Source: Desulfovibrionales bacterium (GTDB lineage: Bacteria; Desulfobacterota; Desulfovibrionia; Desulfovibrionales; Desulfomicrobiaceae). Taken from it: a stretch of 41,420 bases of DNA. The stretch covers positions 1 to 41,420 of the forward strand of contig JAAYCS010000098.1 in NCBI GenBank assembly GCA_012729655.1, written 5' to 3'. A program made the position numbers and the translations under genes. Positions 10,161-14,409 of the stretch are shown here, piece after piece. The notes under the pieces are model-generated. The model saw only the letters and a program-made list of their open reading frames with translations, was not told the origin of the DNA and ran no database searches. Within the stretch, counting starts at the first letter, position 1; each line of letters begins with the position of its first letter.

Positions 10161-12275
10161 TCAGCCCAAGCGGACACTCCAGCGTTCGGCCATGGTCTCC
10201 TCTGGCAGGGTCCAGATGTGCTCGTGCAGGCGTGACATCCGCTCGCTGTCATACAGCAGTTCCTTTTTTTCCTTCTTGCTCAGTGCGGCAGGCCCGTTTT
10301 CCATCGCCTTGGCCATGAGCTCGTCGCGTCGAGCATGAACCTCGGGAGCGAGACAGCGGGAACCGCGCAGCAAAGCGCGGTGCAGCATGTTGACACCAGG
10401 ATCGACGGCGGCCCTGATGAAGCCATCATCGGCGGCAATGCCCAGCCGTTGGCCCTGCTGGGTGTTCTCAGCCAGGTACTTCTCGATGTCCTGGTATTCC
10501 CGCGGGAGACGAACTTCCTCCGGGGTGACAAAGAGGCGGAGCTTGCGGAAAAATCGTCCGACCTCAGCCCGGCTGGTGATCATGGACACAGGGATGGAGA
10601 GGAGCAGGGATATGATCAGGGGTGAACTCCACCAGAAAAACACCCGGTTGATATGAAAGAGGACTGCGCCCCAGATCAGGGCCAGGAGGGTGCCCCCCCC
10701 ATGGAAACGCAGGGCGTCCCAGAGGGGTGTGCCCTCATCGTCGCGCTGCTGGGTGCCCCAGCCAATGCCTACACCCAGGAGGGTCAGGAATACGTATTTG
10801 CTGTGGAAGAGCATGCGAACCGGAGCGAGAAGGGTGGAGAGGATGACTTCCGAGAGGATGCTTCCAAGCAGGGCGAAAAAGCCGCCGAACAGTTTGCGGC
10901 GGCCTTTGATCACCGCCAGGATGAGGGCGCACACCTTGGGCAGGAAAAGAACCAGGGCAGTTCCGCCGAGCAGGGCCAGTGCGGGCATGGGATTCCATAC
11001 GGGCCAGACCGGGAACAGGCTTTTGGTCGGCGCAAAATAGTCAGGCTGGACCAAGGCTTCCAGAATGGCTTCAGTGGTGGACAGGGCCAGGAAGAGGAAC
11101 CAGAGCAGGGCCGAGCCGTAGCTCATGACGCCGTTGAGGAAAAGGGCTCGATGTCCGGGAAATATGCCCCGGGTGAAGACCAGGCGCAGGTGCTGCAGGT
11201 TTCCCTGGCACCAGCGCCGGTCGCGTTTGAGCTCGTTGAGCAGGTTCGGAGGTACTTCCTCGTAGCTGCCTTCCAGGTCGTAGGCCAGCCAGACCGAATA
11301 TCCCGCCCTACGCATGAGGGCGGATTCCACGAAGTCATGGGACAGGATGTCCCCGCCCAGGGGCGGTTTGCCCGGAAGGCGGGACAGAGCGCAGTGGTGT
11401 ATGAAAGGCTTGACCCGGATAATGGCATTGTGGCCCCAGAACTGGGCGTCGCCCAGGAACCAGTGGTGCAGGCCGGCCGCGTACATGGGTCCGTAGGCCC
11501 TGTTGGCGAATTGCTGGGCCCGGGCGATCAGGGTCTCCCTGCCGGTGCAGGCCGGGGCGGTTTGCAGAATGCCCACGTTGCGCCTGCGCTCCATGATGCG
11601 GACCATGCGCACCAGGGTCTCTCCGGACATGACTGAATCGGCATCAAAGACGATCATGTAGGTGTAGTGGCTGCCGTAGCGGCGGCAGAAATCGGCGACA
11701 TTGCCGCTTTTCCTCTTCAAGTTGATCCGCCGTCGGCGGTAGAAGATACGGCCATGGGCCGAGAGGCTTGTGCACAGGGCGTTCCAGGCGGCTTCTTCCT
11801 GCACCCAGCGGTCTGGGTCGTTGGAATCACTCAGAATATGGATGTCGAATTTGTCGGCAGCCCCCAGTCTGCTCAATGATCGCCACACGGCATGAATCCC
11901 GGCCATGATGCGCTCCGGATCTTCATTGCAGATCGGAAAGAGGATGGCTGTTCTCACATGGGGACGGATGGGCGCGTCCAGATCACCGCGTGACCTGCTC
12001 ACGGCAAAGCGGTCGTTACGCTTCAGGAGGGTCCAGAATCCGGCCAGTGCGGTCCAGAACCCCAAGGTGATCCAGATGAAAAGGATGCAATAGACGACGG
12101 TGATGGATCCCTCCAGGAAGGTGCTGCCCCTGTGGGGCAGCAGGGATCGCATGATGGTGGCCGAGACGATGGCCGGAACGAGGACCAGAATCAGGAGTAT
12201 GAGCCTGCGGCGGGCGGCGACTCTACGCCAGGGTTCGTTCAGGAATTCGCGGTTCACGGTTTCCCTCTGTGACAT
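10161..12275 (-). CDS. opgH: OpgH, membrane glucan glucosyltransferase
   Basis: This family-2 glycosyltransferase polymerises beta-glucan at the inner membrane for osmoregulated periplasmic glucans. It has two N-terminal helices (about 24-43 and 60-83) and a cytoplasmic GT domain with FPICNED (113-119), the DADS motif (211-214), HDFVESAL (313-320) and the RDRRWCQGN motif (351-359). Several C-terminal helices (about 375-580) and a C-terminal cytoplasmic tail follow. It is 704 residues, against about 847 in E. coli, because the N-terminal cytoplasmic domain is missing. An in-frame stop just upstream of the ATG confirms the short N-terminus. No clear ribosome site precedes the start. Confidence 0.93.
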   Translation of the reverse strand: MSQRETVNREFLNEPWRRVAARRRLILLILVLVPAIVSATIMRSLLPHRGSTFLEGSITVVYCILFIWITLGFWTALAGFWTLLKRNDRFAVSRSRGDLDAPIRPHVRTAILFPICNEDPERIMAGIHAVWRSLSRLGAADKFDIHILSDSNDPDRWVQEEAAWNALCTSLSAHGRIFYRRRRINLKRKSGNVADFCRRYGSHYTYMIVFDADSVMSGETLVRMVRIMERRRNVGILQTAPACTGRETLIARAQQFANRAYGPMYAAGLHHWFLGDAQFWGHNAIIRVKPFIHHCALSRLPGKPPLGGDILSHDFVESALMRRAGYSVWLAYDLEGSYEEVPPNLLNELKRDRRWCQGNLQHLRLVFTRGIFPGHRALFLNGVMSYGSALLWFLFLALSTTEAILEALVQPDYFAPTKSLFPVWPVWNPMPALALLGGTALVLFLPKVCALILAVIKGRRKLFGGFFALLGSILSEVILSTLLAPVRMLFHSKYVFLTLLGVGIGWGTQQRDDEGTPLWDALRFHGGGTLLALIWGAVLFHINRVFFWWSSPLIISLLLSIPVSMITSRAEVGRFFRKLRLFVTPEEVRLPREYQDIEKYLAENTQQGQRLGIAADDGFIRAAVDPGVNMLHRALLRGSRCLAPEVHARRDELMAKAMENGPAALSKKEKKELLYDSERMSRLHEHIWTLPEETMAERWSVRLG

Positions 12276-12373
12276 ATGCTATTCGGGCTATGAGTTGGCC
12301 TGCGCGAGGAGGAAACGGGCAGATCCCGGACCGGGGCCATGATCATGAACATGGGGACGCCTGCGCATCCGGG

Positions 12374-12859
12374 TCAGTGTGACGACGTGGTGAGTGCATA
12401 AAGTCCAGCCAGGAGCAGCGCGTAGAGGACAATGTCAATGAACGACGTGTTGAGGATGGCCGCCGCCGTGTTCCACAACGGCCGCCATAGGCGCAGAAAG
12501 ACGTGAACCCAGGGGCGTCGGTCCATCACTTCCGGCTTCATGTGCGAACGTTTCAGCGGTGGACCAGGAACAGCATAGACAGGGATGCGCTGTTCCGCCA
12601 GCAAGCTGCGCACGAGTATAATGGCCTTGGCCTCGGCCTGGGCAGCATTCTCGCCCGGGTCTCTGGCCAGGAGATCCAGCGCGGTGAGCGTCAAGCTGTG
12701 TCTGCTCCTTTCGGGAATGGCCATGTGCCGCAGATAGGTGGATACCCTGCGGCCGGCTGCCTCGAGGCGGGCCTCAAGAATTGCGGCGGGAGTTTCCACC
12801 GGGGCCTGTAATCCCGCTGCGACGGGATCAATGCGTTGCTCCATCCGGTCCTTTTTCAT
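12374..12859 (-). CDS. Uncharacterised single-span membrane protein between opgG and opgH
   Basis: This 161-residue protein is not recognised. The first 115 residues are soluble, with a helical Ala/Glu/Arg-rich stretch (25-90), followed by a basic-aromatic WVHVFLRLWRPLW segment and one hydrophobic helix (about 133-156) at the extreme C-terminus. Its ATG shares a base with the opgG stop (TGATG), so it is translationally coupled to opgG, and opgH begins 98 bp later. The layout (cytoplasmic helical part followed by a membrane helix) resembles the N-terminal region that this OpgH lacks, but no sequence match to that region is evident. A role in glucan synthesis is inferred from position only. Confidence 0.8.
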   Translation of the reverse strand: MKKDRMEQRIDPVAAGLQAPVETPAAILEARLEAAGRRVSTYLRHMAIPERSRHSLTLTALDLLARDPGENAAQAEAKAIILVRSLLAEQRIPVYAVPGPPLKRSHMKPEVMDRRPWVHVFLRLWRPLWNTAAAILNTSFIDIVLYALLLAGLYALTTSSH

Positions 12860-14409
12860 CAGAATTTGATGGCGTAGGTCCAGGTTTCAGTCAATGGGGT
12901 GAGCCCGTGCTGCAGGTTGGCCCGCATTTCAATGAAGGGACGCTTGTCCGGAAGGACCATGGCCAGGGGCGACGTGCCGTCCGGTTCGACTTCGAAGACA
13001 AGGCGCCAATTGCCATTGACCGTATTTTTATAGACCCGCTTTTCCAGGAGCTTGCCGCCAGTGCCAATCCACACATTGGAGTCCAGGGCCGCGTCGTCGG
13101 GGAGGTCTTCCAGCTTGCCTCCCTGGAATTCAAGTACGAACAGGCGGGAATTGTCGAGTTTACCCTTGGATGTGCGGGTGAATACGACCTGTCCATCAGG
13201 GAGCGCGACTCGCTGGGGGCTGCACCACCGGATCCGATAGGCATAGGAAACAGGCTTTCCCGGGGAGGGTATCGTGTCCGGGGACCAGAAGCTGACAATA
13301 TTGTCGTGAATTTCCTCGGGCGAGGGTATCTGGACCAGGTGCAGGCGGCCCGGTCCCCAGTCTTCCTTGGGCTCTATCCACGCACTCGGTCGCTGTTCGT
13401 ACCGTGCCTCCAGATCCAGATAGTTATTGAAGTCCGTATCCCGCTGCATCAGGCCCATGCCCCGGATGTTCGGGGCGCTGAACGCATTGACGGCCAGCGT
13501 TTTGGGGTTGTGGAGGGGCCGCCATACCCACTCCTCGTTTTCGAATCTGGCCATGAGGCCGTCGGAATCGTGCACTTCCGGGCGGAAATCGTCGTTCAGA
13601 CGGGGATTAGAGTTCTCTCCGAAAATGAACATGCTGGTCAGGGGGGCGATACCGAGCCGTGCCACGGGCTCGCGCAGGAAGAGGACGGATTCGACGTCAA
13701 TGGCGGTTTCCCCTCCGGGCGTGGCCTCGAATTTGTACGCGCCTGTGACCCGTCGCGAGTCAAGCAGGGCATAGATGGTCACGCTCTTGTCCTTTTTTCC
13801 GGGCTTGACGATCCAGAATTCCTTGAAAAAGGGGAATTCTTCACCCGTGGGCTCGGCCGTGTCGATGGCCAGACCCCTGGCAGACAGGCCGTAATGATGC
13901 CCCTTGCCCACGGCCCGGAAATAGCTGGCGCCGAGGAAGACAAGGAATTCGTCCAGGTAGCTTTTTTTGTTGATGGCGGAATGGATGCGGAATCCTGCAT
14001 ATCCCATGTCTGCCGACAGCTGTTCTGCGAACTTGTTGCGGCCGTAGTTGAATGCGCTTGTGTCGAAGGCCAGGCGTTTGGGTACGCCCTGATCCACCAC
14101 GTTGATGGCCACAGTGCGATCGTAGAACAGGCCGGGGTGGAAGAATTGCAACTCAAAGGGGAGCTTGTCCTCGCGCCAGAGGCTTTTCTCCTGGGCAAAG
14201 CGGATATCCCGCCAGTCATCGTAGGAAATGGTCTTGAGAATATCCGGCACCTGGCCGATGTTGTCCACAAACGGTTTGGCCGCCAGTTCCCGGGCCATAT
14301 TCTCGACATCTCCCAGGCCGAATGTGGAATTCTGGGCCTGAACCATGCCGGTCTGGATGAAAAGGAAAAGCCCGGCCATGAGGCCGCACAATCCACAGCG
14401 TTTCATCAT
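12859..14409 (-). CDS. opgG: OpgG, periplasmic glucan biosynthesis protein
   Basis: This 516-residue periplasmic protein is required for building the beta-1,6-branched backbone of osmoregulated periplasmic glucans made by OpgH. It has a Sec signal peptide (1-25, ending VQAQ), followed by the OpgG beta-sandwich domain with RDIRFAQEKSLW, the PEVHDSDGLMA segment and RPLHNPKTLAVN, all typical of OpgG/OpgD. No twin-arginine motif is present, favouring OpgG over OpgD. Two adjacent ATG codons follow an AGGGAG ribosome site. It is the first gene of opgG-(small membrane protein)-opgH. Confidence 0.94.
   Translation of the reverse strand: MMKRCGLCGLMAGLFLFIQTGMVQAQNSTFGLGDVENMARELAAKPFVDNIGQVPDILKTISYDDWRDIRFAQEKSLWREDKLPFELQFFHPGLFYDRTVAINVVDQGVPKRLAFDTSAFNYGRNKFAEQLSADMGYAGFRIHSAINKKSYLDEFLVFLGASYFRAVGKGHHYGLSARGLAIDTAEPTGEEFPFFKEFWIVKPGKKDKSVTIYALLDSRRVTGAYKFEATPGGETAIDVESVLFLREPVARLGIAPLTSMFIFGENSNPRLNDDFRPEVHDSDGLMARFENEEWVWRPLHNPKTLAVNAFSAPNIRGMGLMQRDTDFNNYLDLEARYEQRPSAWIEPKEDWGPGRLHLVQIPSPEEIHDNIVSFWSPDTIPSPGKPVSYAYRIRWCSPQRVALPDGQVVFTRTSKGKLDNSRLFVLEFQGGKLEDLPDDAALDSNVWIGTGGKLLEKRVYKNTVNGNWRLVFEVEPDGTSPLAMVLPDKRPFIEMRANLQHGLTPLTETWTYAIKF

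Follow-up and report, generated by a model that had tools for sequence, protein, structure and literature searches.

We consider it likely that X, our name for the 161-aa protein encoded at 12374–12859 on the minus strand of a Desulfovibrionales contig (the window, 41,420 nucleotides), is the N-terminal cytoplasmic domain of OpgH carried on its own gene and is a required partner in trans of the short OpgH encoded next to it. Homology to that domain, co-occurrence with OpgH, gene order, and repeated fission and fusion across relatives are the observations behind this reading, and from them we infer contact with OpgH and a requirement for synthesis, while the cytoplasmic placement comes from predicted topology. 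The splitting of a known protein that X represents is well supported and has a precedent for its gene order in opgGIH, and the conserved loop overlaps in alignment with the E. coli peptide linked to FtsZ. Literature searches listed no earlier account of the OpgH N-domain as a detached protein in Desulfobacterota.

The three genes lie on the minus strand in the order opgG, X, opgH (Table 1), with the ATG of X sitting in the stop codon of opgG as a TGATG stop/start overlap. This exact pentamer was present in 11 of the 37 aligned detached loci of the order. A search of the minus strand from 12276 to 12859 revealed no site resembling a promoter or terminator. The window OpgH has 704 aa in the list of open reading frames, compared with 847 in E. 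coli, and starts about 20 residues ahead of its first membrane helix. Translation from a GTG at 12257, which is preceded by AGAGG, would give a protein of 698 aa, and this codon, rather than the ATG at 12275, is probably the true start of opgH, because most loci of the same genus have an aligned ATG at that position that also gives 698 aa. The preliminary description of a 161-residue protein between opgG and an N-terminally short OpgH therefore stands, with a likely small revision of the OpgH length. A second opgG-type gene, perhaps opgD, was seen in the same genome outside the window (G000:C131:2255-3688).

Table 1. Features of the opgG–X–opgH locus, with positions in the window
Feature	Position	Strand	Evidence
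X, detached OpgH N-terminal domain protein	12374..12859	-	ORF; 16/16 genus genomes; hhalign to N-domains of fused OpgH, prob 99.6
opgG (MdoG family), upstream of X	12859..14409	-	Pfam MdoG, E 7.5e-188; TGATG overlap
opgH, short form	10161..12275	-	Pfam MdoH, E 7.2e-276; 704 aa from ATG
Gap between X and opgH, 98 bp	12276..12373	-	Promoter/terminator-like sites searched, none found
X residues 24-90, predicted three-helix bundle with conserved R38, Y42	12590..12790	-	AlphaFold2, ten-residue means 94-97 over most; invariant columns
X residues 99-117, loop with the conserved motif (GPPLKRSHMKPEVMDRRPW), aligned to the 83-101 region of E. coli OpgH	12509..12565	-	Invariant columns; HMM alignment
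X residues 132-150, single predicted membrane helix	12410..12466	-	Kyte-Doolittle 1.94; helix 116-159 in model

The predicted architecture of X is a bundle of three helices in the cytoplasm, followed by the motif loop and a single membrane helix. The AlphaFold2 model (mean pLDDT 87.6, pTM 0.52) has helices at residues 24–44, 50–66, and 72–90, then a long helix at 116–159, and the sole hydrophobic segment of the protein is C-terminal (132–150). A cytoplasmic location of the helical part would agree with the hydrophobicity and with a natural fusion, described below, of a relative of X to a periplasmic OpgG domain. Three residues (P100, R104, and M107) were invariant in all 22 alignment rows, and the conserved motif of the domain reads PPLKRSHMKPE. 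A Foldseek search of the model against the PDB gave no match with E ≤ 0.001, and PDB sequence searches returned no OpgH relative at the limit used. Two weak PDB matches to the N-domain profile were seemingly unrelated, and a structural likeness of X in VIA-align (Z up to 8.2) was discounted as usual for helical bundles.

No Pfam or NCBIfam model matched X above its curated cut-off, as would be expected if X were an unrelated small membrane protein that came to lie in the operon by chance. We regard this explanation as extremely improbable, since X strictly co-occurs with OpgH and since BLAST and two sets of profile comparisons already contradict it. BLAST of X matched the N-termini of fused OpgH proteins (E 2.5e-14 for L103 and 3.5e-14 for L120), and a profile of 12 detached proteins of the same genus matched a profile of 13 fused N-domains in hhalign with a probability of 99.6 (E 1.4e-23); the second comparison, with gamma- and betaproteobacterial N-domains, is given below. 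All 16 genomes of the genus, its own among them, have X, as do two of three genomes of a sister genus; in the third (G021), opgG is cut and nothing matched OpgH. Estimates of dN/dS were 0.12–0.28 for X and 0.04–0.14 for OpgH in eight usable pairs of nine tried; the pair L111–L102 was unusable, the L102 locus being detached by profile HMM. These ratios indicate that X is under purifying selection, and together with the presence of the gene in 16/16 genus genomes they show that it is more than a chance reading frame.

The same domain occurs in two forms across the order, where we sampled 297 genomes and read the neighborhoods of 91 opgG-type matches. In many loci of family f5, the reading frame of OpgH stays open through the stretch from opgG to the OpgH core, and the encoded proteins have about 800–860 aa. 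We looked for close relatives with a short OpgH that lack the domain, and found instead that it accompanies each of the 62 full-length OpgH sampled from the order, as a detached protein in 38 and fused in 24. A membrane helix was present in 31 of the 38 detached proteins and absent from seven. The description of X as a detached piece of OpgH is well supported, both by these fused relatives and by the homology to gamma- and betaproteobacterial N-domains. The domain adjoins the opgH core in 61 of the 62 genomes, and the HMM divided these adjacent loci into 30 detached with a membrane helix, seven detached without one, and 24 fused. A further sample of 395 genomes from the phylum added 16 adjacent loci, 10 detached and six fused.

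Over all 77 opgG–opgH loci that were read, the N-domain HMM found a match in every one (47 detached, 30 fused), with 76 scoring at least 25 bits and L167 scoring 8.0, compared with 6.4 for the best of 1575 shuffled ORFs; these counts are partly circular, as the HMM was built from an alignment (A3) that holds X and some of the counted loci. The BLAST matches, the detached-versus-fused profile, the order-versus-gamma/beta profile, and the HMM matches in gamma/beta proteins are independent of that circularity. Profiles were used because a regular expression for the motif overlooked variants with different spacing and also matched elsewhere; counts with this expression (P..R..[MVLPF]) were rejected, the fused loci being no better than the shuffle maximum (17/30). 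The count of 62 is exclusive of a 63rd OpgH match (G061), a fragment at a contig end. Three cut opgG fragments (those of G021 and G270 and one of the two in G010) were left out, as were opgG-type loci with no adjacent opgH and three loci with no upstream opgG (L190, L198, and L210). Two loci labelled as fused by script (L180 and L199) showed no sign of the domain in their extensions by eye and were kept out of the profiles.

On the OpgH tree, a quick tree made with no mixture model and with some long rows, five changes between the fused and detached states were needed, and starred branches force at least three. The family of the window has a fused group as its nearest sister on this tree, with modest support (81). 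A structure prediction for one natural fused OpgH (L179) reached a pTM of 0.89, with the N-domain helices mostly above a pLDDT of 90 and the motif region lower, and the OpgH model resembles cellulose and hyaluronan synthases.

Two detached loci had unusual arrangements. In G009 (L255/L086), the single genome in which the domain does not adjoin opgH, an insertion places opgH about 9.8 kb away from X, and both genes are still open; the insertion carries a 378-aa ORF that, by reading of the sequence, resembles a phage-type integrase. In G077 (L253:1501-2295, also L104), the membrane helix of the detached protein is followed by the C-terminal domain of an OpgG (Pfam MdoG 344-477, E 3.5e-17), a periplasmic module 57% identical to the neighboring OpgG.

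The G077 protein and the location of the X gene between opgG and opgH would both fit a role for X as a bridge between inner-membrane OpgH and periplasmic OpgG, coupling synthesis with trimming or branching. We consider such a role improbable, however, because the fusion to an OpgG domain was found in one of two searched genomes of that genus, X in the window has only a few residues past its helix, and seven of the 38 detached loci in the order have no membrane helix.

Homology extends beyond the phylum to OpgH of the E. coli type. A scan of named genomes yielded OpgH with N-terminal extensions from Pseudomonas, Enterobacterales, Cupriavidus, other Burkholderiales, and Verrucomicrobia. The hhalign probability against gamma/beta N-domains was 92.1, and pooling the order sequences raised it to 96.9 (E 1.8e-10, against 48 gamma/beta/Verrucomicrobia N-domains; reversed control 0.4). 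For the A3 HMM, which contains none of these 48, the best match lay at the N-terminus in every one of them; at a search size chosen as 4000, 39 had E < 0.01 and 46 had E < 0.05. E. coli OpgH alone matched weakly (13.0 bits, E 0.015 at the chosen search size), in an alignment that spans its residues 47–107 and leaves its first helix unaligned. Alphaproteobacterial OpgH from Azospirillum and Caulobacter had no evident N-domain. On these profile matches, the domain of X is homologous to the N-terminal domain of gamma- and betaproteobacterial OpgH.

This homology raises the question of cell division, as one study reports that E. coli OpgH 1–138 (OpgH-N) binds and inhibits FtsZ and that residues 83–101 are sufficient for division inhibition and midcell localization (PMC3723540). 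The E. coli segment aligned with the conserved loop of X (PEAKRSSMFPDPW) falls within residues 83–101, and detachment would permit independent action, so the main role of X could lie in regulating cell division, as an inhibitor of FtsZ that is anchored in the membrane and has parted from the synthase, leaving division control independent of OpgH itself. We think this unlikely. According to the same study, OpgH-N still inhibited when residues 83–101 were removed, with no significant effect of removal, or alanine-scanned (PMC3723540), and Caulobacter OpgH, which has no extension, is reportedly not believed to act on FtsZ in the E. coli manner. Moreover, the domain adjoins opgH in 61 of 62 genomes of the order, and among the opgG-type loci read that have no adjacent opgH, a BLAST match to X was found only in G009; this distribution points to the synthase. 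Some role for X in restraining FtsZ, by analogy with E. coli OpgH 1–138, is possible. Further literature was drawn on (PMC11389396, PMC4726272).

Action of X in trans on OpgH is the most likely reading, because the domain accompanies OpgH across the order, repeatedly fuses and splits, and stays intact where opgH has moved. Under the proposed mechanism, its own helix would hold X at the inner membrane, the helical bundle and PPLxRxxMxPE loop would bind in trans to the cytoplasmic side of OpgH, in the way expected of the fused domain in cis, and X so docked would permit or tune the synthesis of beta-glucan. More speculatively, and with considerable doubt on our part, the OpgH N-domain could be an ancient separable subunit whose loop docks on the core. 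FtsZ inhibition in E. coli might then have grown from the docking loop, with UDP-glucose binding freeing the loop for FtsZ, and the Desulfomicrobium loop, on its own membrane-anchored protein, might leave the control of synthesis and of division separately adjustable.

The FtsZ-linked domain of OpgH has been separated from the synthase naturally and repeatedly. Organisms in which the two are already split make it possible to ask if the domain works in glucan synthesis, in division, or in both processes. The analysis also proposes a function for a small gene outside Pfam and NCBIfam families and suggests what OpgI may be.

One of the closest known systems is the opgGIH operon of Rhodobacter sphaeroides (Cogez et al. 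2002), in which a small gene, like that of X, reportedly lies on the same strand as opgG and a short opgH and separates the two. Inactivation of this opgI is reported to lead to loss of glucans, with OpgI described as needed for synthesis of the glucan backbone. A separate source reports complementation of an E. coli opgH mutant by the R. sphaeroides opgI and opgH pair (PMC10514313). A subunit role for X is supported by this complementation and by the positional precedent of opgGIH. The middle genes of Sulfitobacter and Qingshengfaniella, which we used as stand-ins for R. sphaeroides OpgI, gave a best probability of 4.2 against the N-domain, which is not significant. Sulfitobacter plasmids carry the row opgG, a 56-aa hypothetical gene, mdoH, and opgC; this stand-in is much shorter than the 161-aa X, with no significant similarity. 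The APLxMPxQ motif of the 56-aa gene (L256:3666-3836) recalls the MPAQYL of some detached proteins. Leptospira plasmids (L172:1989-2378, L265:2480-2848) also carry, flanked by an opgG-type gene and mdoH, a hypothetical gene whose product has a hydrophobic segment at its C-terminus, and the similarity of this middle gene (two sequences) to the X domain was not significant.

The same domain as in X is found in fused OpgH from the Desulfovibrionaceae and from other members of the Desulfobacterota (L103, L107, L120, and L179), where in L179 it is 38% identical to X, but there the domain is joined in frame to OpgH and has no extra membrane helix. With OpgH-N of E. coli, X shares profile homology, a place before the OpgH core, and an R..M motif aligned to residues 83–101; it differs in being a separate polypeptide with its own membrane helix and a shorter middle region.
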